The notes under the pieces are model-generated. The model worked only from the letters and a program-made list of their open reading frames with translations. It made no database searches and was not told the DNA's origin. A DNA stretch of 64,000 bases from Anaeromyxobacter sp. Fw109-5 (lineage in GTDB: Bacteria > Myxococcota > Myxococcia > Myxococcales > Anaeromyxobacteraceae). The DNA lies in contig NC_009675.1 of assembly GCF_000017505.1 (NCBI RefSeq), positions 1,364,001-1,428,000 on the forward strand. The letters are read 5' to 3'. Each line of letters opens with the position of its first letter. The first letter of the stretch is position 1. Position numbers and translations under genes: made by a program. Shown here piece after piece: positions 1 to 51,478 of the stretch.

Positions 1-3000
1 CCGGGAGCACGTCCACGTTGCACTGGAGGGCGAGGTAGCCCGCGGTCGGGAAGAACGGCTGCAGCTCGCCGTCGCGGCTGCGCGTGCCCTCGGGGAAGAT
101 GAGCAGGTGGTAGCCGCGGCGCAGCGCCTCGGCGGCCGCCTTGAGGCTCGCCTTCAGGGACCCCTCCCGCTCCATCGGGATGAGGTTCGTGAAGTTCTCG
201 AAGTAGGCGCGCTTCACGCGCGTGTCGAAGAAGTAGTCGCGCGCGGCGAGCGCGGCGAGGCGGCGTCCCTCCTCGCCGAGCGCCACCTTCACGAGCCCCA
301 TGTCCAGGTGGCTCGCGTGGTTCGCGACGACGAGCACGTTCCGGTCGTGCGGGACGTTGGCGGCGCCGACCACCTTCGCGTCGTACAGCCCGTGGTACAG
401 CGCCCGCTGCCCCAGCCCGAGCAGCCGCCGCCCGAGCTTCGCGATCGTCGCGGGGACCGGGATCTCCTCGTCGCTTGCGGGCTGCGCGGCCGGCGCTCGC
501 TCCGGCTCCGGCGCGTGGCGGCGCGCCGCCGAGGCGACCACGCGCGCCAGCTCGCCGACGGTCTGCACGTCCTGCAGGTGCTCGGCCGTGGACGCCGGGA
601 CGCCGGTCTCCTCGAGGGCGGCGGCGAGCTCGGTGAGCATCAGGCTGTCGAAGCCGAGGTCCGTCGCCAGGCGCGACTCGTGGGTCACCTCCGACCGCGG
701 GCGGCGCGACACCTCGGCGAGGAGGTCGAGCAGCCAGCCGTCGCCCGCGCCGCGCTCCATCGCCGCCTCGCGCGCGCGCCGCCCCTTCTGCGCGGCGGCC
801 TCGAGCCGGAGCAGCTCCTCGCGCACGAGGCCGCGCTTCACCTTGCGCGTCGCGGTCTTCGGCAGCTCGGCGTCCACGACGTGCCAGACCTTGACGCGCT
901 TCGCGAAGGGGAGCGTCGCCGACACCGCCCGGACGTGCGCCTCGAGGCGGGCGCGCACCTCCTCGCGATCGTCCTCCCCGTACTCGGGCACGAGGATCAT
1001 GGCGACCTTCTCGCCGGTGCCGTCGGGGAGGCCCACGACGCAGAGCTCCTTCACGAGCTCCGGCTCGCGGTACGCCTCCTCGATCTCGTCGGGATAGACG
1101 TTCTTCCCGTTGGCGTCGATGATGACGTCCTTCTTGCGGCCGACGAGGGTGAGGTTCCCCTTCTCGTCCAGCTTCCCGAGGTCGCCGGTCCGGAGCCACC
1201 CGCCGTCGAGCACCTGCCCGGTCTGCTCCGGGTCCACCCCCGCGTTCGCGCCGCCGCGCCAGTAGCCGAGCATGACGTTGGGCCCGCGGGCGAGCACCTC
1301 GCCGACTCCGTCCGCGTCCGGCTCGGCGATGCGAAGCTCCACCCCAGGCAGGGCCGGGCCGACGCTCCCCTCCGGCGACTCCTCGTGCGGCTGCGACACC
1401 GCGAGCACGGGGGCCGCCTCGGTGAGGCCGTAGCCCTCGTAGAGATCGAAGCCCAGCTCGCGGAACGCCTTCTGGACCTCCGGATCGAGCGCGGAGCCGC
1501 CGGAGACGAGCAGGCGCAGCCGGCCGCCGAAGCGGCGGTGCACCGGCCAGAAGAGGAGCTTGCCGAGGTTCAGCCCCAGCTCGGAGTCGCGCAGCGCCGC
1601 GTTCCCCTTCATGAGCGCGCGGAACGCGCCCTCGACGACGCCGGGCTTCGCCGCCAGCTCCTGCGTGATGCGACGGTGGAGCAGCGACCAGAGCGCCGGC
1701 ACGCCGATCATCGCGGTGACGCGCCCGGAGGAGAGCGCCTCGGAGATGCGGTCCGAGGTGAGCTCGTCGAGGTACTCGATCTCCGCGCCGCGCGAGAGCG
1801 GCACGAGCAGCCCGCAGGTGAACTCGAACGTGTGGTGCAGCGGCAGCACCGACAGCATGCCGTCGCCGGGCCCGAGCTCGAACGTGCCGACGAGCTTCGC
1901 GACGAGGCTCGCGAAGTTCCGGTGCGAGAGCATGACGCCCTTGGGCGTGCCCGTCGTCCCGCTCGTGAAGATGAGCGAGGCGAGATCGTCCGGGCCGACC
2001 TTCGCGGCGGGGGCGCCCGCGGGCGCCGGTCCCCCCGCGAGGGCCTCGGCGAGCAGCGCCGCGCGCGCGCCCGGGACCGCGGCCGCCGCGAGCGCGGCGA
2101 GGCCCGGGCTGCGCTCCGCGGCGTCGTCGGAGAGGAGGGCCAGCCGCGCGCCGGCGGTGCGCCAGAGGTTCGCGAGCTCGCGCTCGGTGAGCTGCGGATC
2201 GACCGGCACCGCCGCCGCGCCGGCGCGGAGGATCCCGAAGTAGGCGACCGCCCACTCGGGCCGGTTCTCGCTCGCGAGCAGCACGCGATCGCCCCTGGCG
2301 ACCCCGGCCGCGCGCAGGAACGCGGCGACCGCGCCGGCGCCGCGGCGCAGCTCGCCGTAGGTGAGCCGCGACTTCGCGGCGCCTTGCATCCGGAGCGCGA
2401 CGCGGTCTTCCCAGCGCTCGCAGGCGGCGTCGAGGAGCTCGAGCAGATCGCGGTGGGCCTTCGGGGCGTGGACGCGCCTGTCGGACTCCTCCTCGAGTCC
2501 GGGGAACACCCACTCCTCCATGCCCTTCATGTGGACGTCGAGCCAGTACCGGCGCCAGTCGAGCGCCTCGGGGTCCCAGGGGATGCGCGCGCGGTCGGCG
2601 TCGCCGAGGCGCGCGTACAGCGCCCGGATGGCGGCGCAGCGGAACACGTACCGGTTGTCGCAGACGAACGGCAGGTAGAGCTCCCAGAGGTCCTTCGTCT
2701 GCTCGAGCCGGGCCTCGAGCTCGTCGAGGCTGTCGGAGAGCCCCTCGGCCAGGGCGGAGAGCCTCGGCGCGCCCCAGCGCGGCGAGGTCTCGCGCAGGAG
2801 CCGCTTCGCGCCGCGCGCGAGCGCGGAGAGGGCGGGGGTGCTCGCCGCCTCGTAGTGCGCGCGAGAGACGGAGTAGGGCTCGAGCCTGGAGAGGAGCCGG
2901 TTCCAGGTGCGGTTGCCCTCCTCTCGCTCGCGGAAGAAGCGACGCCGGTAGAGCGCGGTGAGCTCGACCGCCCGCCGCGCCCAGAGCGGGTTCACGTCGC

Positions 3001-4243
3001 CCGAGGCGAGGTGGTACACGCGGCCCGGGGGGCGCTCCGCGGCGGGGCGGGCCCGCACGGCGTCGCGCCGCTCCACGAGCTCGGCGGTCGCCGCGATCAT
3101 CGCCGCCGCCACGAGATCGACCGGCACGACGTCGAGGATCGCCTTCTCGGCCGCGGGGAAGCTGCGGTGCCCCTTGAGCGCCATGAAGGCGAGCGGTGCG
3201 CTCGTCGTGAAGCCCTCGTTCCAGCCGGGGAACGGGAAGCGCAGCGCGCTCTCCACGATCGACGGGCGGACGATCGACCAGACCACGTCGCTGCCGGCGA
3301 TGACCTGCTCGCCGAGCGACTTCGTGTACGTGTACGTGTTGGGCCAGCCCCAGTGGCGGGCGCGCGTCATCCCCGCCTCGACGAGCTGACCGGAGAGCCA
3401 CAGCCGCCGCTCGCGGCCGATGGCGAGCCGGAGCGCCTTCTCGTCGCCCGCGCGGCCCTCGGCGCGGAGCCGCTCGACCGCGCGATCCCGGAACTGGGAC
3501 TGGAGCACGCGATCGTCGGCGCGGGCCCGGAGCTCCTCGACGCGGCGGGTGGCGTCGGCGAGCTCGCTCTCGACGCCGAAGTCGGCCGCGTCGAGCGTGC
3601 CCGCCTTCGGGCGACCCTCCACGCCCTCGCGGCGCGGGAAGTAGCCGACCAGCTCCTCGTCCTCGTGCACGACGCCGTCGCGGTTGCCCGCGACGAAGCA
3701 GGTGGACACGTGCAGGAGCGCCGCGCCGGTGCAGCGGCAGAGCTCCACCGCGCCCCGCGGCCCGTGCACGTTCACCGCGAGCGCGAGCTCGAGCGAAGGG
3801 TCGAAGTCCACGAGGCCGGCGCTGTTGACGATCGCGTCGAGCCCTTCGAGGCGCGCGAGATCCGCCTCGGAGAGGCCGAGGAGCGGGTCCGTCACGTCGC
3901 CGGCGAGGGGGACGCACTTCTCGCGGAGGAACGCGTCGAACCCCGCGCCGTGACGTGCGCGGAGCGTGTCGAACGGCCGGCTCGGCGCCACCTTGTCGAA
4001 GAAGCGGGCCTCGGCGGTGCCGCCGGTGCCCGGACGGACCACCACGAACACCCGCCCGACGTCGGGGTAGCGGTCGAGCAGCATCGAGAGCGCGACCTTC
4101 CCGACGAAGCCGGTCGTGCCCGTGAGGAGGAGCTTGCGCCCCGCGAGCGCGCGGCCGACCTCGAGGGGAGGGGCGCCCGGCGAGGCGCGCCCGGGGGCGG
4201 GCGCGGGCGCGTGGCGGGCGGGGCTGTCGCGGCGCTCGGTCAT
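1..4243 (-). CDS. elbD: ElbD-like multidomain ether-lipid enzyme (partial, C-terminus off window)
   Basis: 1,414 codons are visible and the C-terminus lies beyond base 1. Domains in order: an NAD(P)-dependent thioester reductase of the fatty acyl-CoA reductase type (TGTTGFVG at residues 41-48, YTYTK further on), an AMP-forming acyl ligase ([12 protein letters not shown] near 764, YGLTEAAP), a carrier domain (LGFDSLML near 1198), and a PlsC-type acyltransferase (NHASHLD near 1307, FPEGTRS near 1385). This order matches, as I recall, ElbD of Myxococcus xanthus, described as a multifunctional enzyme of ether-lipid synthesis needed for fruiting. The likely role is to activate and reduce an acyl chain and place an acyl group on the glycerol backbone. 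The ATG overlaps the stop of the upstream LarA-like gene (ATGA), so it is the last visible gene of a four-gene operon. Domain calls are firm; the ElbD assignment is an inference from architecture. Confidence 0.85.
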
Positions 4244-41720: not shown

Positions 41721-42323
41721 GTGAGGACCGACTACCGCACGGCCAAGCGCGCCCTCGACGTCGGGTTCGCCGGGATCGCGCTCGCGGTGCTCTCGCCCCT
41801 GATGGCCGCCATCGCAGCGGCGGTGAAGCTGGACTCGGCGGGCCCGGTCCTCTTCCGGCAACGGCGGGTCGGGCTCCGCGGCGTCCCCTTCACGATCCTG
41901 AAGTTCCGCTCGATGTTCGAGGGCGCGAGCGGCCCCTCCGTCACGGCGGCTGCGGACGCGCGGGTGACGCGAGTCGGCCGGTTCCTGCGCCGCCACAAGC
42001 TCGACGAGCTGCCCCAGCTCTGGAACGTCCTCGTCGGCGACATGAGCCTGGTCGGCCCGCGCCCGGAGGTGGAGCGATACGTGCGCCTCTTCCCGGACGC
42101 CTACGCGCGGATCCTGACGGTGCGTCCCGGCCTCACCGACTTCGCGTCGCTCGCGTACCGGAACGAGGAGGCCACGTTGAGCCGCTGGCCCGACGCGGAG
42201 GCGGCCTACACCCAGATCGTGCTCCCCGCGAAGATCGCGCTCTACCACCGCTACCTGGACGAGATGTCCCTCAGGACCGACGCCGCGCTGGTCCTGCGGA
42301 CGCTCGCCGCGCTCGTGCGATGA
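41721..42323 (+). CDS. Initiating sugar-phosphate transferase (PssY/WcaJ C-terminal type)
   Basis: 200 residues from a GTG with AGAGGGAG upstream. One membrane segment (about 10-35) precedes the bacterial sugar transferase domain: VLFRQRRVGLRG, FTILKFRSM, RRHKLDELPQLWNVL and GDMSLVGPRPE. It is the short monotopic form lacking the four-helix N-terminal domain. It transfers a sugar phosphate from a UDP-sugar to undecaprenyl phosphate and so starts each repeat unit. Its stop overlaps the ATG of the aminotransferase gene (ATGA). Confidence 0.92.
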   Translation: MRTDYRTAKRALDVGFAGIALAVLSPLMAAIAAAVKLDSAGPVLFRQRRVGLRGVPFTILKFRSMFEGASGPSVTAAADARVTRVGRFLRRHKLDELPQLWNVLVGDMSLVGPRPEVERYVRLFPDAYARILTVRPGLTDFASLAYRNEEATLSRWPDAEAAYTQIVLPAKIALYHRYLDEMSLRTDAALVLRTLAALVR

Positions 42324-43501
42324 CCTCCGGACCGTTCATCCCCTTCGCGCTGCCCGATCTCACGAGCGCCGAGAGCGACGCCGTCCTCGAGGTCCTGCGG
42401 CGCGGCTGGATCACGACCGGGCCGCGCGCGAAGGAGTTCGAGCGCCGCTTCGCGGGCGCGGTGGGCGCTCCCCACTGCGTCGCGGTGAGCTCGTGTACCG
42501 CGGCGCTGCACCTCGCCCTCGAGGCCGTGGGCGTGCGGCCGGGCGACGAGGTGATCGTCCCGACCATGACGTTCGCGGCGAGCGCGGAGGTCGTGCGCTA
42601 CCTCGGCGCGGTCCCCGTGCTCGTGGACGTGAACGCCTCGGACCACAACGTCGCCGTGCCGGCGATCGAGCGGGCGATCACTCCGCGCACGCGCGCGATC
42701 GTCCCCGTGCACTTCGGAGGCGTCCCCGCGGACATGGACGAGATCGTCGCCCTCGCGCGGCCGCGCGGCATCGTCGTGGTCGCGGACGCGGCGCACGCCT
42801 TCCCCAGCGAATACCGCGGGCGCAACGTCGGGGCGCTGGCCGACGTGACCTGCTTCTCGTTCTACGCCACGAAGACCCTCACCACCGGTGAGGGGGGCGC
42901 CGCGGTGACCTCGCGCGCGGAATGGGCCGACCGCATGCGGATCATGTCCCTCCACGGCATCTCGCGCGATGCGTGGAAGCGCTACATGGAGGGAGGAAGC
43001 TGGTACTACGAGATCGTCGCGCCCGGGTTCAAGTACAACCTCGGCGACATCGCGGCGGCGCTGGGGCTCGCTCAGCTCGCGCGCGCGGAGGCGATGCGGG
43101 CACGGCGCGAGGCGATCGCGAGACGGTACGACGCCGCGTTCGCCGGACGCGAGGCGCTGGAGCTGCTCGCGCCCGCGCCCGACCGGACGAACGCTCACCA
43201 CCTGTACGTGATCAAGCTGGCTCCGCACCTCCTCGACATCGATCGGAACCGGTTCATCGAGGAGCTGACGGCGCGTGGCGTCGGGGTCTCGGTCCACTTC
43301 ATCCCGTTGCACGAGCACCCCTACTACCGCGAGACCTTCGGGTACCGCCCCGAGAGCCTGCCGGTGGCGCACGACGCCTACCTCCGCTCGATCTCGCTGC
43401 CCATCTACTCCGCGATGACGGACGAGCAGGTCGAGCGGGTGGTCGAGGCGGTCCTGGAGATCGCGGACGGACACCTGCGGGCGAGCGCCACCGCGCGCTA
43501 G
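42320..43501 (+). CDS. DegT/DnrJ/EryC1 family sugar aminotransferase
   Basis: 393 residues. It has the PLP-dependent aminotransferase features of this family: VSSCTAALHLAL near 57-68, Asp-156 in VVADAAHA, and the cofactor lysine Lys-185 in FYATKTLTTGEGG. Later ISLPIYSAMTDEQVERV is also typical. It converts a 3- or 4-keto nucleotide sugar to an amino sugar, providing an amine that an acetyl- or acyltransferase could modify. It is co-translated with the initiating transferase and convergent with the GNAT of the carrier-protein operon. Confidence 0.92.
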   Translation: MTSGPFIPFALPDLTSAESDAVLEVLRRGWITTGPRAKEFERRFAGAVGAPHCVAVSSCTAALHLALEAVGVRPGDEVIVPTMTFAASAEVVRYLGAVPVLVDVNASDHNVAVPAIERAITPRTRAIVPVHFGGVPADMDEIVALARPRGIVVVADAAHAFPSEYRGRNVGALADVTCFSFYATKTLTTGEGGAAVTSRAEWADRMRIMSLHGISRDAWKRYMEGGSWYYEIVAPGFKYNLGDIAAALGLAQLARAEAMRARREAIARRYDAAFAGREALELLAPAPDRTNAHHLYVIKLAPHLLDIDRNRFIEELTARGVGVSVHFIPLHEHPYYRETFGYRPESLPVAHDAYLRSISLPIYSAMTDEQVERVVEAVLEIADGHLRASATAR

Positions 43502-43565: not shown

Positions 43566-44255
43566 TCAGCCCGTCTCCAGGGAGAGGCCGCGAGGCCCCG
43601 ACGACGCCCCCTGCCGCCCGATCGTGCCGAAGGTCCGGCCGGCGAGGTGGTAGCCGGTGATCAACCGCTCGATGCGGAACCCGAGCCCGAGGTACGAGTT
43701 CAGCGACGCGACGTTCTCCTTCCCCACGTAGGCCTTGCAGATCTGGAAGCCCTCCCGGCTCGCGACGCCGAGCGTCGCCGCGTTGACCGTCGGGAAGAGC
43801 CCGAGCCCTCTGAACGCCGGGAAGATGAAGATGTTCTCGATCATGACCTGATCGTCGGCGAGGAGGTACCGGCGCCGCGCGAGGTGCTTCTCGAGCAGGG
43901 GATTGTCCACCGGCCGGATCAGCCACTGCAGCGAGACGATCTGCCGGGCCTTGTTTCGCCCCACGTAGCAGCTCGTGAAGCCGTGCTGGAAGAAGAGGAG
44001 CCGCGCGACGAGCTCCGTGCGGGACAGCGGATCGAGCGCCGCGATGCCCGGCAGGATCTCGTCGAAGTCGCCGTCCGTCGCCAGCGAGAACTCGACGTCG
44101 GCGCGGAGCCGCGGGAAGCGGAGCCGCTGGATCGGCGCCGTCAGGTAGTAGACGTGCTCCACGGAGCAGAGCTTCCTCAGGACGCGCACCGCCGGCAGCC
44201 GGAGACCCAGGCAGGAGGCGACGAGCCTAATCTCTCGCAGTGAACGAAGAGGCAT
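43566..44255 (-). CDS. GNAT-like N-acyltransferase of the carrier-protein operon
   Basis: 229 residues. The central part has VMIENIFIFPAFRGLGLFPTV (about 136-156), an acetyl-CoA or acyl-carrier binding motif A, then KAYVGKENVASLNSYLGLGF, the GNAT motif B region. The first 90 residues are less typical. It starts 12 bp after the acyl carrier protein gene on the same strand, so it is the last gene of the NAD synthase-like / AsnB / ACP operon. It may transfer the group activated on the carrier protein to an amino sugar. Confidence 0.78.
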   Translation of the reverse strand: MPLRSLREIRLVASCLGLRLPAVRVLRKLCSVEHVYYLTAPIQRLRFPRLRADVEFSLATDGDFDEILPGIAALDPLSRTELVARLLFFQHGFTSCYVGRNKARQIVSLQWLIRPVDNPLLEKHLARRRYLLADDQVMIENIFIFPAFRGLGLFPTVNAATLGVASREGFQICKAYVGKENVASLNSYLGLGFRIERLITGYHLAGRTFGTIGRQGASSGPRGLSLETG

Positions 44256-44267
44256 GGGCTGTCCGGA

Positions 44268-44522
44268 TCAGCCGACGGCTGCGCGCCGCTTGTTCGCGAC
44301 GAACGCCGCGACCCGGCGGATGGACTCCAGGTTCTCGGGGGTCATCTCCTCGTCCTCGATGCGGACGCCGAACTCCGTCTCCACGAACGCGATCAGCTCG
44401 AGCATGCCGGTCGAGTCGATGACGCCGGCCGTGACGAGCAGGCTGTCGTCCGCGAGGTCGGCCGGGTCGCTCACGTAGAAGTTCTCGACGATGAACTGCC
44501 TCACTCGGTCCTCGATCCTCAT
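44268..44522 (-). CDS. Acyl carrier protein
   Basis: 84 residues. The motif VIDSTGMLEL near residue 35 contains Ser-37, the expected phosphopantetheine attachment site. The surrounding sequence (FYVSDPADLADDSLL; RIEDEEMTPENL) is acidic and helical as in free-standing carrier proteins. The ATG shares one base with the AsnB stop (TGATG). Free carrier proteins in polysaccharide loci are usually loaded by an adjacent AMP ligase; one is encoded at 47627, divergent from this operon. Confidence 0.9.
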   Translation of the reverse strand: MRIEDRVRQFIVENFYVSDPADLADDSLLVTAGVIDSTGMLELIAFVETEFGVRIEDEEMTPENLESIRRVAAFVANKRRAAVG

Positions 44523-46552
44523 CACATCCCCCTGGCGCCCCGAGCGTCGGGTCCGCCGGCCCGTGCAGGCACCCGGTCGACGACGGTGGCGAAATCCATG
44601 GCCGCGGCCCTCGCCGGAGCTCGTCGGACGAGCCGCTCGTGCAACAGTCCCGTCGACAGCACGCCGACGAGGGCCATGTTGTCCGCGTTGGAGAACTGCG
44701 CTCCCCCGCCGGACGCCTCGCACTTGCGCCACAGGCGCTCGACGCCGCGCGGATCGAACACGCCCGCGTCGGCGACGGCGCGCGGGCTGGTCAGCTCGCC
44801 GACCCAGTCCGGCGCGCCGGGGCCGACGAAGCACAGCGCGTCGGGGGCGCGGAAGGGCTGCTTGGACCGGCGGACGATCTCGTCCGGGACGAGGCCTCGC
44901 GCCGCGCGCTTGAGGACGTGCTTCTCGTCGAGCCCGCGGAGCTTGAGCGTGGCGGGCAGGCCGTTCGCGAGCTCCACCACGTTGGGGTCGAGGAACGGGA
45001 ACCGGCCCTCGACCGAGTGAGCCATCAACATCCGGTCTCCCTGCGAGGACAGGAGGTAGCCGGACAGCAGGGTCCGCACCTCGAGGAACTGGTCCTGGGC
45101 GAGGTGTGGCCAGCGAGGAAACTCCGCGGGGAGCGAGGCCAGCAGCCGATCGACCACGTCGACGCGCTGCGCCTCGCGCCGGACGTCCGCGCAGAAGAGC
45201 CGCTGCAGCGCGGCGGCCGAGCGCCACCGCGTCTGGTGCGCGAACCCCGCGGAGTCCCACCGCTCCCGCCCGGCGCCGAAGAACTCGCGCGCCAGCGCCT
45301 GCTGAGCCACGGGCGAGCGCGCGAGGTACGGATACAGGCGCTCGAGGAGTCGCGGGCGGAGCCTCGACGCCGGCTGTCGTCCCCAGAAGCGCCGGACCTT
45401 CCCTTCCTTGAAGAGGTCGTAGCCGGCGAACACCTCGTCGGCGCCCTCGCCCGTCAGGACGACCTTGATGCCCGCGTCGCGCACCAGCTTCGAGAGCAGG
45501 AAGAGCGGCGCCGGGGCGGTCCGCAGCAGCGGGCGCTCCGCGTGAGCGACCACGTCCGGGAAGACGGCGGCGATGTCCTCCCGACGCACGAGCACCTCCC
45601 GGTGCTCGGTCTCGAGGCGCGCCGCGACCGCCCGCTGGAACGGCGTCTCGTCGTACTCGGCGTCCTCGAAGCGCAGCGAGAAGGTGCAGAACTTCTCCCC
45701 CTTCACGCGGCGTCCCAGCGCGGCGACCAGCGAGCTGTCCAGCCCGCCGGAGAGGTAGCTCCCCACCGGCACGTCCGCGCGCAGCATGCGCAGCCGGACC
45801 GACTCCTCGAGCGCCGCCCGCACGCGCTCCGCGGCCTGGTCGGGGGACTCCCCCGAACCCTCCGGCTCGGTGTACCGGGGCGTCCAGAAGGCGCGATCGT
45901 CCGTGCCGGCCCGGGAGATCGTCCGCACGTGACCGGGCTCGAGCTCGGTGACGCCCTGGAACACCGACTGCGGCGCCACGGCGGTCCAGAAGGTGAACGT
46001 CTCGGCGAGGCCCGCGGGATCGAGCGCCCGGGGGATGTCGGGGTCGCCGGCGAAGAGCGCCTTGACCTCGCTCGCGAACCACAGCCGGCCGCCGTGCTCG
46101 CACAGGTACATCGGCCGGACGCCGAGCCGATCGCGCGCGAGGACGAGCGCCTCACGCGCGGAGCTCCACAGCGCGATGGCGAACTGTCCGTTGAATCGCT
46201 CGAACGCCCGCTCCGCCCACGCCTCGTAGGCGTGCACGATGACCTCGGTGTCGCTGCGGGTCCTGAACCGGTGACCCAGCGCGACCAGCTCGGCGCGCAG
46301 CTCGAGGTAGTTGAAGATCTCCCCGTTGAACACCACCCACAGCGAGCCATCCTCGTTCGAGAGCGGCTGCTGCCCCGTGGCGAGATCGATGATCGAGAGC
46401 CGGGCGTGGCCCAGGCCCGCGCGGCGGTCGCGGTAGAGGCCGAGCTCGTCCGGGCCCCGGTGCCGGATCGCCCCGACCATCGCCCGCAGGTCCTCCAGCG
46501 CCGGCGGCGGCAAGCCATCGCGAAGGGCGACGCAACCGGCGATCCCGCACAT
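44522..46552 (-). CDS. asnB: Asparagine synthetase (glutamine-hydrolysing) family protein
   Basis: 676 residues. The ATG at 46552 leaves Cys-2 as the N-terminal glutaminase nucleophile (MCGIAGC); an upstream in-frame TTG would block it. The glutaminase domain includes FNGEIFNY. The synthetase domain has the PP-loop SGGLDSS (268-274), LTGEGADEVFAGYD and EGRFPFLD. In polysaccharide loci these enzymes often amidate uronic acids, not aspartate; a UDP-uronic acid dehydrogenase at 22695-24023 could supply such a substrate. It lies 2 bp after the NAD synthase-like gene and one base from the ACP. Confidence 0.88.
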   Translation of the reverse strand: MCGIAGCVALRDGLPPPALEDLRAMVGAIRHRGPDELGLYRDRRAGLGHARLSIIDLATGQQPLSNEDGSLWVVFNGEIFNYLELRAELVALGHRFRTRSDTEVIVHAYEAWAERAFERFNGQFAIALWSSAREALVLARDRLGVRPMYLCEHGGRLWFASEVKALFAGDPDIPRALDPAGLAETFTFWTAVAPQSVFQGVTELEPGHVRTISRAGTDDRAFWTPRYTEPEGSGESPDQAAERVRAALEESVRLRMLRADVPVGSYLSGGLDSSLVAALGRRVKGEKFCTFSLRFEDAEYDETPFQRAVAARLETEHREVLVRREDIAAVFPDVVAHAERPLLRTAPAPLFLLSKLVRDAGIKVVLTGEGADEVFAGYDLFKEGKVRRFWGRQPASRLRPRLLERLYPYLARSPVAQQALAREFFGAGRERWDSAGFAHQTRWRSAAALQRLFCADVRREAQRVDVVDRLLASLPAEFPRWPHLAQDQFLEVRTLLSGYLLSSQGDRMLMAHSVEGRFPFLDPNVVELANGLPATLKLRGLDEKHVLKRAARGLVPDEIVRRSKQPFRAPDALCFVGPGAPDWVGELTSPRAVADAGVFDPRGVERLWRKCEASGGGAQFSNADNMALVGVLSTGLLHERLVRRAPARAAAMDFATVVDRVPARAGGPDARGARGM

Positions 46553-46554
46553 GC

Positions 46555-47529
46555 TCAACTCCCCGGGAGCTCGGTCACGAGGAGCGGGGCCTCGTGCAGG
46601 TAACGGCTCGCCCGCCGCTTCGCCTCGATGTCGCGGTAGACGCGCTCGACCTGCTCAGCGGTGAGCCCCAGGGCGGCCCCGACCTGCGCCGCCGAAACCT
46701 CGTGATCGTGCGCCCAGAGGCAGAGGTCCATCTCCCGGTACGGGAGCGCGAAGAAGAACTCCTCCTGCGTCTGGGACAGCGAGAACGTATCGGTGGTGGG
46801 GGGACGCGCCCGGATCTCCCCAGGGACGCCCAGGTGCTCGGCGAGCGCGTAGACCTGGGTCTTGTACAGGTGCGCGATCGGCTTGAAGTCGGCGGCGCCG
46901 TCTCCCTGCTTCACGAAGAACCCCTGGTCGTACTCGAGGCGATTCGGGGTGCCGGCGACGGCGAAGTTGAGCCGATCCGCGTGGTAGTACTCCATCATCT
47001 TGCGCGCGCGCTGCTTGAAGTTCGTCGCCGCCACGAGCTGGAGATACGCCGCGGCCGACATCCGGGAGCTCCGCTCGCGACCCAGCGGGTCCGCGACCGT
47101 GAGGAGCGTCACGTTGAGGCGGTCTCCCGCGAGGAGCGAGGGGAGGGTGAGCTTGCACCGCCATCCCTCCCCGTACTCGGGGACCACCGACCGGATCGCC
47201 TCCAGCTGCCGCTCGTAGCAGCCGAGCCCTGCCAGCGCGGGTCCGACGTCCTCGACCAGGTGGCGGATCCCGAGGTGGTCGGCGAGCGAGCGGCCGAGCC
47301 TCAGCGCGTCGCTCGAGGAGTCGCGCTCGGGCATGAGCAGCCCGAGCACCCGGTCCGCGCCGAGCGCGCGCGTGCAGAGCGTCGCGACGACGGAGCTGTC
47401 GATGCCCCCCGACATCCCGACGACGGCGCCGCGGCGCCGTAGCGTCCCGAGCACCTGGTCACGGATGGCCTGCTCTATCCCTTCGGCTGCCCTCGCCGCG
47501 TCGATTCGCAGCACATCCCGCGTGAACAT
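46555..47529 (-). CDS. nadE: NAD synthase-like ATP pyrophosphatase
   Basis: 324 residues from MFTRDVLRID. SGGIDSS (40-46) is the PP-loop. GTPNRLEYDQGFFVKQGDG and IAHLYKTQVYALA match NAD synthase motifs. The C-terminal region reads PPTTDTFSLSQTQEEFFFAL, unlike the usual Gly-Gln-Thr-Asp-Glu block. This form is often found in exopolysaccharide clusters beside AsnB. It may make NAD from ammonia, but its location suggests a specialised amide- or adenylate-forming role. It is the first gene of the operon with asnB, acp and the GNAT. A longer start 32 codons upstream exists but is less likely. Confidence 0.8.
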   Translation of the reverse strand: MFTRDVLRIDAARAAEGIEQAIRDQVLGTLRRRGAVVGMSGGIDSSVVATLCTRALGADRVLGLLMPERDSSSDALRLGRSLADHLGIRHLVEDVGPALAGLGCYERQLEAIRSVVPEYGEGWRCKLTLPSLLAGDRLNVTLLTVADPLGRERSSRMSAAAYLQLVAATNFKQRARKMMEYYHADRLNFAVAGTPNRLEYDQGFFVKQGDGAADFKPIAHLYKTQVYALAEHLGVPGEIRARPPTTDTFSLSQTQEEFFFALPYREMDLCLWAHDHEVSAAQVGAALGLTAEQVERVYRDIEAKRRASRYLHEAPLLVTELPGS

Positions 47530-47626
47530 GGCGTGTCGGACAATAGGACGTCTCCGCGCGGGCAACACGCCACGGAATGGGGCGGTCGTTGCGATGAGGA
47601 GCTCCCGCCCAATACTTACCCGCACC

Positions 47627-49186
47627 GTGAACTCGCCGTTCCTGCACGAATGGCTCTTCTTCCACGCCGCCCGCCGGCCCGACGCCCCGGCGGTGGCGAC
47701 CCCCGCGCTGCGCCTGACCTACGGCGAGCTCGCCACCCGGGTACGCGCGCTGGCCGCGCACCTCGCGGAGCACGGGGTCGCGGCGGGGGACCGGGTCGTG
47801 CTCGCCGTGCCGAACACCCCGGCGACCGTCGTCGCCGGGCTCGCCGTGAATGCGCTCGGCGGCACGGCCGTGGAGGTGAACCGGGAGTGGGGCGGAGAGG
47901 TGCTCTCCGGGGTCGTCGCCCAGACCGGTGCCCGCCACGCGGTGATCTGGGGGCGCGACCTCCGAACCTGGGCCGGCGTCGCCGCGCGCTCGCGGCTCGA
48001 CGCCGTCTGGGTGCTCCACGCGGCCGGGCTCCCGGAGGCGCTGCCGGGCGTCGCGTCCACCTCGGTCCTCCTCGAGGACGGCCGGCTGCACGCGGCGGCC
48101 CCGGCTTCGCCGCCGCCGTCACCCGAGCTGCGGCCCGACTCGCCGGCGCTCATCCTGTACACGTCCGGGAGCACCGGCCGGCCGCGCGGGGTCGTGCAGA
48201 CGTTCCGCAACGTCGACGCGAACACCCGATCGATCGTGCAGTACCTCGGACTCGGCGCGGACGACCGCGCCCTGCTGGTCTTGCCGCTCTACTACTGCTA
48301 CGGCCGCAGCGTGCTGCAGACGCACCTGTTCGCCGGCGGCTCGGTGTTCCTCGACAGCCGCTTCGCGTTCCCCCGGGTGGTCCTGGACGCGCTCGCCTCG
48401 GAGCAGTGTACGGGCTTCGCCGGGGTCCCGCTCACGTTCGAGATCATCCGGCGGCAGGTGAACGTGGCGTCGATGGCGTTCCCCAGGCTGCGATACCTCA
48501 CCCAGGCCGGAGGCGCCATGGCGCCGGAGACCATCGACTGGGTGCGCCGCGCGTTCGAGCCGGCGAAGCTGTTCGTCATGTACGGACAGACCGAGGCGAC
48601 GGCACGCCTCTCGTACCTGCCGCCCGGCAGGGCGGAGGACAAGCGCGGCTCCATCGGCGTCCCCATCCCCGGGGTCGAGCTGCGCGTGGTCGACGAGCAG
48701 GGCCGTGAGCTGGCGCCCGGCGCCGTGGGGCACCTCGTGGCGCGCGGGGGCAACGTGACCCTCGGATACCTCGACGAGCCCGAGGCGACCGCGGAGATCC
48801 TGCGCGAAGGGTGGCTCTGGACCGGGGACCTCGCCTACCGAGACTCCGAGGGGTTCCTGTTCCATCAGGGACGCTCGAAGGAGATCCTGAAGGTCGGTGG
48901 CCATCGGGTGAGCCCCGTGGAGATCGAGCACGTCATCGCGGACCACCCCGACGTCGCCGAGGCCGCGGTGATCGGGATCCGGCACGACCTCGTGGGCGAG
49001 GTCCCCGCCGCGTTCGTCGTCGGCCGGGCGGGCAGGAGCCCGAGCGAGGCGGCCTTGCTCCAGCATTGCCGCGAGCAGCTGCCGCCCTACAAGGTGCCCG
49101 TCAAGTTCACCGTCGTCGAGGCGCTCCCGCGCAACGAGGCGGGCAAGCTCCTGCGCGCGGAGCTCGCCCGCCGCGCCTCCGAGTGA
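47627..49186 (+). CDS. Acyl-AMP ligase (class I adenylate-forming)
   Basis: 519 residues from a GTG giving MNSPFLHEWLFFHAARRPD; an ATG 11 codons upstream (47594) is an alternative, and neither has a convincing ribosome site. Adenylation motifs in order: ILYTSGSTGRPRGVV, YGQTEATARLS, GWLWTGDLAY, KEILKVGGHRVSP and the final catalytic Lys region NEAGKLLRAEL. There is no reductase or carrier domain in the same chain. It is divergent from the NAD synthase-like operon, whose third gene is an acyl carrier protein, so it probably loads an organic acid on that carrier. Confidence 0.88.
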   Translation: MNSPFLHEWLFFHAARRPDAPAVATPALRLTYGELATRVRALAAHLAEHGVAAGDRVVLAVPNTPATVVAGLAVNALGGTAVEVNREWGGEVLSGVVAQTGARHAVIWGRDLRTWAGVAARSRLDAVWVLHAAGLPEALPGVASTSVLLEDGRLHAAAPASPPPSPELRPDSPALILYTSGSTGRPRGVVQTFRNVDANTRSIVQYLGLGADDRALLVLPLYYCYGRSVLQTHLFAGGSVFLDSRFAFPRVVLDALASEQCTGFAGVPLTFEIIRRQVNVASMAFPRLRYLTQAGGAMAPETIDWVRRAFEPAKLFVMYGQTEATARLSYLPPGRAEDKRGSIGVPIPGVELRVVDEQGRELAPGAVGHLVARGGNVTLGYLDEPEATAEILREGWLWTGDLAYRDSEGFLFHQGRSKEILKVGGHRVSPVEIEHVIADHPDVAEAAVIGIRHDLVGEVPAAFVVGRAGRSPSEAALLQHCREQLPPYKVPVKFTVVEALPRNEAGKLLRAELARRASE

Positions 49187-49438
49187 ACCCCGGCGCCGGG
49201 GGCGCGCCGGCTCGGTCCTCGGTGAGGCTCCTCGCCCGTGGAGCGTGCGCTGGGAGGAACGAGCGTGACCCGGATTCTCGGGACGCGCTCGGCGTGCAGA
49301 CGCTCGCCGTGCCGCCCCCGTGAGATTGCGCCGGCGGGAGGAACCTCTCATGCCGTGGGATCGCAGGACTCGACGTGTGAGATAAGCGCCCTTACCTGAG
49401 CGTACGGTTCCAAAGGGCGAGCGCGGTGGGGGGTGAAG

Positions 49439-51478
49439 ATGGCTCACGCTGGGTCCATCCGGGTGGATGGCTGGTTGACGATGCGCTGTCGGGCCGCGGC
49501 TGCGTTCGCTGCGGGTACGGCCGCGCTCGCTCACCCCGGCTGGCGGTACGCCGCCATCTTCGCCGTGGACGGCGCCGCCGCCCTCGCCGCTCTGCACGTC
49601 GCGTTCTGGCTGCGGTTCGAGGGCGAGCTCCCGCTCTTCTACGGCCGGATGCTCCCGGCGGTGTCGGCCCTCCTCCTCGTGACGCGGCTCTCGTCCAACG
49701 GGCTCGCCCGCCTGCACCGATGGTCCTTCCGGCTCGCGGGCCTGGACGAGGCACTCCGGGTCGTCGCGGCTGCCGCGGCGGGTACGGCGGTCTTCCTCGC
49801 CGCGACCGTGGTGCTCTCGCTGCGGCTCCCGCTCACCGTCTACGCGCTCGAGCTCTTCCTGTCGGCCACCGCCTTCGGCGCGGTGCGCTTCCTTCCGCGC
49901 GCCGGCCTCCAGTGGCTGGGGAACCGGTCCCGGACCCGCGCGGGGGCGCCGCGCGCGCTCGTCATCGGCGGCGGTCACGCGGCGGAGCTGCTGGCGCGCG
50001 ACCTGCTGCGCGAGCCCGGCGGCCAGTACCAGCTCGTCGGGTTCATCCACGAGGACGGCCACACGGGGTGCGCGCGCATCGACGGGATCCCGATCCTCGG
50101 CGGGGTCTCCGATCTGCCTCGCCTCATCTGGCTACACCGCATCACGGCGGTGCTCCTCGCCGATCCGCGCGTCGGCGCGGCGCGGATCAGGGAGATCGTG
50201 TCGCTCTGCTCCACCTCCCGCGTGCGGTTCAAGATCGCCCCGTCCTCCTGGTGTCACCTCGAGCAGCGCCTCTCGGGGGCGATGCTCGCGGACATGTCGC
50301 CCGAGGACCTGCTGCCGCGCGACGCCGTCGCCTTCGACGAGTCGGAGATCCGTCGGCTCGTCGGCGGACGGCGCGCGCTCGTGACGGGCGCCGGCGGCAC
50401 CATCGGGGGGGAGCTCTCCCGCCAGCTGGCGCGCAACGGCGTTCGACAGCTCGTGATGGTCGACATGAACGAGAACGAGCTCTACCTGCGCCGCCTCGCG
50501 CTCGCCGAGGAATACCCGGACGTCGAGATCCGCTGCGAGGTGGCCGACGTCCGCGAGGCCGCGCCGCTCCTGCGCCTCGGCCAGCGCTACCGGCCGGATG
50601 ACGTCTTCCACGCGGCGGCGCACAAGCACGTGCCCCTCATGGAGGATGCGCCGGCGGAGGCGGTGAAGAACAACGTCTTCGGGACCTTGAACGCCGCGCG
50701 CATGGCGGACGCGTGTGGCGCCGAGCGGTTCGTGCTCATCTCGACGGACAAGGCGGTGAACCCGACGTCCGTGATGGGAGTGACGAAGCGCGTCGCCGAG
50801 CTCGTGGTCCGCGACCTCGCTCGCCGCTCGCGCATGCGGGTCACCGCGGTCCGGTTCGGGAACGTGCTCGGCTCCTCCGGCAGCGTCATCCCGATCTTCA
50901 AGCGGCAGATCGCGCGCGGCGGCCCCGTGACCGTCACGCACCCGGAGTGCACGCGCTACTTCATGACGATCCCGGAGGCGGTGGGGCTCGTGCTGCTGGC
51001 CGGCCTGGGCGGCCACGGCGAGCTGTGCGTCCTCGACATGGGCGAGCCGATCCGGATCGCCGACCTCGCGCGGAGCATGATCACGCTGTCCGGGCACGTG
51101 CCCGGAGAGGACGTGGAGATCGTCTACACGGGGCTGCGCCCCGGCGAGAAGCTGACCGAGGAGGTGCTCACCGAGCAGGAGGAGCGCTCCCTCGTCGTGC
51201 GCGATCGCATCCGGGTGACGCAGAGCCCTCCGCCGCCCGACGACCTGCAGGCGCGGCTGCGCGAGCTCCGTGCCGTCGCGGATGGGGGTGAGCGCGACGA
51301 GCTCCTCGCTGCCCTCGCGGCGCTCGTGCCGACCTACCTGTCGCCGCGCGACCGGTTCACCCACGGGCCGCCGGTCGCGACCACGCCCCCCGCGCACGGG
51401 AGCGGCAGGGGCGGGAGCTACGGACCGCCGGGGCTGAGCGTCGTGGGACGCCCCGGTGACGCCGGGGCCCGCCTGTGA
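49439..51478 (+). CDS. CapD/FlaA1-type nucleotide-sugar dehydratase (WbpM-like)
   Basis: 679 residues. Four or five membrane helices (about 30-150) come first, followed by a CoA-binding-like domain (RALVIGGGHAAELLARDL near 180). The SDR domain has VTGAGGTIGGEL near 316 (NAD-binding), and its catalytic region HAAAHKHVPLMED is typical of the WbpM/FlaA1 4,6-dehydratase family. Later FGNVLGSSGSVIP and a catalytic region STDKAVNPTSVMG follow; the usual family reads SSG or GSV similarly. It makes a 4-keto-6-deoxy intermediate for amino-sugar synthesis, upstream of the DegT aminotransferase. The C-terminal 30 residues are low-complexity. It overlaps the Wzc-like gene region closely. Confidence 0.88.
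   Translation: MAHAGSIRVDGWLTMRCRAAAAFAAGTAALAHPGWRYAAIFAVDGAAALAALHVAFWLRFEGELPLFYGRMLPAVSALLLVTRLSSNGLARLHRWSFRLAGLDEALRVVAAAAAGTAVFLAATVVLSLRLPLTVYALELFLSATAFGAVRFLPRAGLQWLGNRSRTRAGAPRALVIGGGHAAELLARDLLREPGGQYQLVGFIHEDGHTGCARIDGIPILGGVSDLPRLIWLHRITAVLLADPRVGAARIREIVSLCSTSRVRFKIAPSSWCHLEQRLSGAMLADMSPEDLLPRDAVAFDESEIRRLVGGRRALVTGAGGTIGGELSRQLARNGVRQLVMVDMNENELYLRRLALAEEYPDVEIRCEVADVREAAPLLRLGQRYRPDDVFHAAAHKHVPLMEDAPAEAVKNNVFGTLNAARMADACGAERFVLISTDKAVNPTSVMGVTKRVAELVVRDLARRSRMRVTAVRFGNVLGSSGSVIPIFKRQIARGGPVTVTHPECTRYFMTIPEAVGLVLLAGLGGHGELCVLDMGEPIRIADLARSMITLSGHVPGEDVEIVYTGLRPGEKLTEEVLTEQEERSLVVRDRIRVTQSPPPPDDLQARLRELRAVADGGERDELLAALAALVPTYLSPRDRFTHGPPVATTPPAHGSGRGGSYGPPGLSVVGRPGDAGARL

Follow-up and report, generated by a model that had tools for sequence, protein, structure and literature searches.

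Parts of the gene set described here are known from other bacteria. The set comprises five genes in a 64,000-nucleotide stretch of the Anaeromyxobacter sp. Fw109-5 chromosome (NC_009675.1, positions 1,364,001 to 1,428,000; hereafter the window), encoding a NadE-like amide synthetase, an AsnB-type amidotransferase, a stand-alone carrier protein, an AMP-forming ligase and a probable GNAT acyltransferase. A ligase-carrier pair, SMb20650/SMb20651, is found in Sinorhizobium meliloti and reportedly goes back to work by Ramos-Vega from 2009. According to PMC7232532, the ligase SMb20650, whose gene is co-transcribed with that of the carrier, yielded SMb20651 in acylated form when the two were co-expressed in E. 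coli but was unable to stand in for FadD, and a word search of this source returned no mention of NAD or asparagine; two further papers report SMb20651 with a DST motif and without known function (PMC12391972, PMC5686131), and all three papers describe the ligase and carrier only, giving the pair no function. Exopolysaccharide (EPS) genes of PEP-CTERM/exosortase systems likewise combine an AsnB-type enzyme (TIGR03108) with an AMP ligase (TIGR03098), the second-best models for the window proteins, whereas the window AsnB (436.5 bits, cut-off 816.9) and ligase (332.3 bits, cut-off 592.35) fall far below the curated cut-offs and NadE is not part of the models' description. Two loci related to ours (L071 and L083, in metagenome-assembled genomes (MAGs) of Desulfobacteraceae and Zixibacteria) adjoin an exosortase gene; upon searching the host genome for an exosortase we found none, and an exosortase-linked EPS system was rejected on this ground. 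The Wbp/Vim pathway of Porphyromonas gingivalis employs an AsnB-type amidotransferase (WbpS) and an N-acyltransferase on one amino sugar, with VimA showing predicted similarity to N-acetyltransferases (PMC7468200), but it lacks NadE, and the same paper mentions neither a carrier protein nor adenylation of the transferred amino acid. In the Dlt system, an AMP ligase (DltA) loads a stand-alone carrier, whereas AsnB and NadE have no Dlt counterpart.

Compared with these systems, it is the constant AsnB-NadE pair that makes the window locus new, while the ligase-carrier-acyltransferase logic is of a known kind. Literature searches by enzyme names found no paper describing the NadE-AsnB-carrier-ligase set, in keeping with the preliminary description of this DNA, made from the letters alone, which knew of no pathway built from the five genes. 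Searching one genome per species with the window NadE-like protein yielded 80 loci, all picked by likeness to this protein (at least 51% identity), so that the co-occurrence figures are conditional on its subfamily. Gene calls in these loci came from codon usage and gene labels from hidden Markov models (HMMs), with a check against annotation in locus L006 only. By tblastn with the window proteins, AsnB, carrier and ligase adjoined nearly all 80 loci. Among the 41 full-flank loci (at least 5 kb on both sides, a few of them on plasmids), AsnB lay within 6 kb of NadE in all 41, and AsnB, carrier and ligase were all found within this distance in 35, which led us to reject chance clustering of the core genes. 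The preliminary description had treated the five genes as one set that should recur elsewhere; this held for four of them, while the GNAT-like gene dropped out of the conserved set, as close relatives turned up in no more than 3 of the 145 genomes searched in the host order.

The module is real, accessory and widespread. It spans about ten phyla, being present in Myxococcota, Acidobacteriota, Planctomycetota, Gemmatimonadota, Actinomycetota (Tessaracoccus, Catellatospora) and Proteobacteria as well as in MAGs labelled Bacteroidota, Zixibacteria and Chloroflexota, and the same four-gene set resides on plasmids of Mesorhizobium, Nitratireductor and S. meliloti. Within the host order, the NadE-like cassette gene was present in 68 of the 145 genomes. 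In the host genus, NadE and AsnB were both present in six genomes and both absent in three, and neither gene is present in G016 and G020, two congeners at 99-100% completeness, indicating that the module can be absent from complete genomes. Across loci, identities to the window NadE and AsnB rose and fell together (Spearman 0.77), compared with 0.37 and 0.46 for each of them against the ligase. The AsnB homologue of one congener (G014:C1:3158340-3160352) carries one in-frame TAA, possibly a pseudogene or an end-of-frame effect. No PADLOC model of a known anti-phage defence system matched, and a defence-system reading was rejected for this reason.

The S. meliloti pair very probably belongs to this family of cassettes. 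On pSymB of strain 1021 (L087), AsnB, carrier, ligase and NadE stand in a row; the carrier of the same cassette in strain GR4 (L004) shares the DST motif reported for SMb20651; and of the six listed S. meliloti carriers, SMb20651 alone bears a tag that places it on pSymB. From replicon, gene order and motif, we conclude that the strain 1021 cassette very probably includes SMb20650/SMb20651. Its ligase differs from that of the window in belonging to another subfamily (F-D type, see below), with ~35% identity.

The window NadE-like protein matched the PRK00876 subfamily at 528.9 bits (cut-off 313) and the general nadE model TIGR00552 at 153.7 bits (cut-off 63.65), and the ATP/Mg motif SGGxDS was kept by all family members apart from one substitution. 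Upon alignment with E. coli NadE, the positions that we take to bind ATP, Mg or NaAD were strongly conserved, with 140, 160, 165, 173, 180, 189 and 211 identical in 81 of 81 family members and 261 a K in 76 members and an R in the other 5. Where E. coli has the loop PDEVALG, the cassette family has QEEF[FY]F; it also carries its own insert after the first half, with a near-invariant G-C-Y. In all 16 cassette genomes tested, a separate NadE match lay in a long open frame (at least 571 aa), as would be expected from its length of a glutamine-dependent NadE, and the cassette protein is hence a second NadE of the cell and not the sole one. Genomes with two NadE types are recorded in a survey of the NAD synthetase family (PMC3376133), and word searches in this survey returned no link of NadE to AsnB/carrier clusters.

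The AsnB-type partner matched PF00733 (5.8e-93) and GATase_7 (4.1e-46) and is the only strong Asn_synthase match in the host genome. As the protein begins with MCGIAG, the glutaminase Cys is in place, and the SGGxDSS synthetase motif is present as well. Solved relatives come from natural-product biosynthesis, with the hydroxyamidotransferase 7ylz scoring best and the beta-lactam synthetase 1jgt lower, which indicates that the AsnB fold accepts substrates other than aspartate. To our knowledge, these two enzymes belong to different clusters, without NadE.

The window carrier scored just below the PF00550 cut-off (20.7 versus 20.8 bits), with a D-S-T-G attachment site; the DST motif recurs in 54 of 69 carrier family members, and the nearest solved relatives are a BlmI-type (type II) peptidyl carrier and then DltC. 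The ligase matched PF00501 (6e-76). The cassette ligases fall into three groups, termed types A, B and C. At the A4 position, most type B ligases have F-D and window-like type A ligases have Y-C or Y-V, with Y-C replacing F-D in the window protein. In nonribosomal peptide synthetase adenylation domains, the A4 Asp holds the alpha-amino group of the amino acid. Beyond close kin, the nearest relatives of the window ligase are myxococcal (60% in L074, with NadE there only 54% identical), while in L015 NadE is 70% and the ligase, of a different type, only 34% identical. Type A loci were associated with hexapeptide transferases (Fisher p 0.007) and SGNH-like proteins (p 0.001), type B loci with a PrmC-like methyltransferase (p 0.016; an NPPY enzyme present in 7 of 38 loci) and type C loci with an N-myristoyltransferase (NMT)-like family (p 0.0003), values that are descriptive because several tests were run on related sequences without correction. 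Type A loci, the window included, were also enriched in flippases and glycosyltransferases as well as hexapeptide transferases, and a holo-ACP synthase gene adjoins four of them. The proposal that ligase and carrier form an acyl-loading pair is borne out by the very probable homologues SMb20650/SMb20651, for which PMC7232532 reports an acylated carrier in E. coli. In one Deltaproteobacteria MAG (L033), a single AsnB-NadE pair is surrounded by two carriers and by two ligases that differ in type, and at the left window edge a 1557-aa open frame (1-4243, minus strand), running past position 1, contains an AMP-ligase domain that scored 302 bits with the cassette ligase HMM.

Unlike the core, the acyltransferase appears to be exchangeable. 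The window GNAT-like protein had no Pfam match even at E<=1 and gave a low-scoring AlphaFold model (pLDDT 36); two homologues had sub-threshold Acetyltransf_1 matches in the same motif region (E 0.02 and 0.044), making the GNAT label probable. A second carrier-GNAT pair lies ~47 kb upstream of the window pair (G000:C1:1359843-1360915, ~3.1-4.2 kb before window position 1; L112, L123), 82% (carrier) and 76% (GNAT) identical to the first; it adjoins a methyltransferase-like gene and has no AsnB, NadE or paired ligase. The duplication suggests that carrier and GNAT work together and, as other loci use other acyltransferases, that the acyltransferase is an interchangeable partner of the carrier. 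Counting the six nearest neighbours, hexapeptide transferases came out as the most frequent Pfam family in each of the two locus types sampled (10/110 and 10/112), and the Myxococcus-type operon runs secreted SGNH-like protein, two hexapeptide transferases, carrier, AsnB, ligase and NadE. A further neighbour family of 360-370 aa (13 loci), without Pfam match, was modelled at pLDDT 83.6 from an alignment built on genome-contig loci only, and had N-myristoyltransferases as its best Foldseek matches (E 3e-15), so that it is predicted to adopt an NMT-like tandem GNAT fold. Its gene occurs together with a PrmC-like NPPY methyltransferase (L004, L006, L088 29303-31248), adjoining the Mesorhizobium cassette and ~10 kb off in S. 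meliloti. In the Myxococcus-type operon, the large upstream gene encodes an MscS-like channel (MacB/FtsX in a relative), and a search of the host genome for MBOAT (DltB) found none, by which a Dlt-like export with MBOAT was rejected. Overall, the link to acyltransferases, like the module itself, its conservation and its intact catalytic motifs, is established at the level of sequence, and transfer by an acyltransferase, suggested before for the GNAT, is upheld by the duplicated pair and by the hexapeptide and NMT-like enzymes elsewhere.

We propose, at just under an even chance, that the four-gene module builds an acyl or aminoacyl group which contains an amide and is bound to the carrier, and that a partner acyltransferase then moves this group, here likely to a 4-amino sugar. 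The ligase would adenylate a carboxylic acid and load it on the carrier phosphopantetheine; AsnB, with glutamine, and the NadE-like enzyme would each adenylate a carboxylate to give an amide, either on the acceptor or on the acid, whether already loaded or not; and the exchangeable acyltransferase, here the GNAT-like protein, would pass the group on. The acid chemistry, the amidation targets and the glycan acceptor are what we infer from this arrangement. For the window locus, glycan decoration is the best reading, the likely acceptor being a 4-amino sugar that the PglF-like dehydratase and the PseC-like DegT enzyme of the same polysaccharide locus could supply, consistent with the amino-sugar source suggested earlier. 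We further entertain, somewhat more tentatively, that the cassette NadE has been neofunctionalised to act with AsnB in amidating another carboxylate, such as a sugar acid linked to a nucleotide or an acid bound to the carrier, as part of a widely shared and previously undescribed route to amidated acyl groups. Several points weigh against the first of these proposals: no gene reveals which acid is loaded, the ligases form three subfamilies that differ in their pocket residues, profiles give the GNAT assignment little backing, many cassettes (Sorangium, S. meliloti, Myxococcus type) are found at a distance from glycan genes, and the module NadE keeps its presumed NaAD-binding residues and, judged by these, could simply make NAD.

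Another reading takes the two amidating enzymes for ordinary ones, a spare NAD synthase and an asparagine synthase, clustered through shared regulation only. While both proteins pass the general models, the presumed ATP-, Mg- and NaAD-binding positions vary little or not at all among the 81 family members, and AsnB is the sole strong match of its kind in the genome, we regard this as very improbable, given the separate long NadE frame in all 16 genomes tested, the absence of both genes from the nearly or fully complete G016 and G020, the altered loop and the insert with its near-invariant Cys, and a fixed linkage to carrier and ligase across many phyla that is unexpected for housekeeping genes. 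Closer to the preliminary description, which had both amidating enzymes act on a uronic acid, would be two separate decorations, with a WbpS-like AsnB making a uronamide, ligase, carrier and GNAT acylating an amino sugar, and NadE serving one of the two or supplying NAD. In P. gingivalis, formation of a uronamide requires the AsnB-type PGN_1234/WbpS, and the sugar concerned also receives an amino acid through VimA (PMC7468200), which renders the decoration idea chemically reasonable, and the window AsnB reaches 436 bits with TIGR03108, a family that this paper ties to PGN_1234 homologues. That score is nevertheless under the cut-off, and AsnB stays with NadE in loci without glycan genes and tracks it in conservation, so that we consider two decorations improbable. 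A uronic-acid target for both enzymes found no support, since the UDP-sugar dehydrogenase of the window lies 20 kb from the cassette, glycan genes are missing from the immediate surroundings of the Sorangium, S. meliloti and Myxococcus-type cassettes, and the NadE-like protein retains its presumed NaAD site.

These same cassettes bear on the possibility that the product of the module, an acyl amide or N-acyl amino acid amide, is an amino lipid or a small molecule secreted in free form, with the polysaccharide setting being incidental. Stand-alone Sorangium operons contain NadE, carrier, ligase and AsnB only (L011, L014, L016), the Myxococcus-type operons also stand alone, and the S. meliloti plasmid cassettes have no adjacent glycan genes; moreover, one neighbouring acyltransferase family has a predicted N-myristoyltransferase fold, the carrier resembles natural-product carriers of the BlmI type, and the PrmC-like methyltransferase recurs in some type B loci (7/38). 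We nonetheless consider a free product rather unlikely, as type A loci share the glycan-related enrichment described above and no exporter is constant across loci. The features of the window locus are listed in Table 1.

Table 1. Features of the five-gene set and its immediate surroundings (window coordinates)
Feature	Position	Strand	Basis
NadE-like ATP-PPi amide synthetase (PRK00876 subfamily), without glutaminase domain	46555..47529	-	profile matches, alignment
AsnB-type glutamine-hydrolysing amidotransferase	44522..46552	-	PF00733, GATase_7
Stand-alone carrier protein, DST attachment motif	44268..44522	-	PF00550, solved relatives
GNAT-like acyltransferase (probable), lineage-restricted	43566..44255	-	sub-threshold profile matches of homologues
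AMP-forming acyl/carrier ligase, type A subfamily	47585..49186 (start 47585 or 47627)	+	PF00501
Divergent intergenic region, NadE operon versus ligase gene	47530..47584 (to 47626 with later ligase start)		
DegT/PseC-like sugar aminotransferase, candidate source of acceptor amino sugar	42320..43501	+	
Small bacterial sugar transferase (Bac_transf)	41721..42323	+	
CapD/PglF-type nucleotide-sugar 4,6-dehydratase	49433..51478	+	

All five reading frames were found where the preliminary description had placed them, inside an exopolysaccharide locus that further includes Bac_transf, DegT, a Wzx-like flippase, glycosyltransferases, a Wzc-like kinase, a UDP-sugar dehydrogenase and a PglF/CapD-type dehydratase. 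With 2 nt between the NadE stop and the AsnB start, overlapping AsnB stop and carrier start, and a 12-nt gap between carrier and GNAT, these four genes look like one operon, with the ligase gene divergent. The host genome is a complete chromosome of 5.28 Mb, and its closest named relatives in the NadE-based search were Anaeromyxobacter sp. PSR-1 and Anaeromyxobacter oryzae.

Annotations commonly treat NAD synthase and asparagine synthase as housekeeping enzymes; here, they are found in a dispensable carrier-ligase module of Myxococcota, Acidobacteriota, Planctomycetota, Gemmatimonadota, Actinomycetota and rhizobia. If the proposed role is true, many nadE and asnB genes in databases would be part of a biosynthetic pathway not yet described, and for the orphan S. 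meliloti pair SMb20650/SMb20651 there would be a pathway context open to testing in a tractable laboratory strain.

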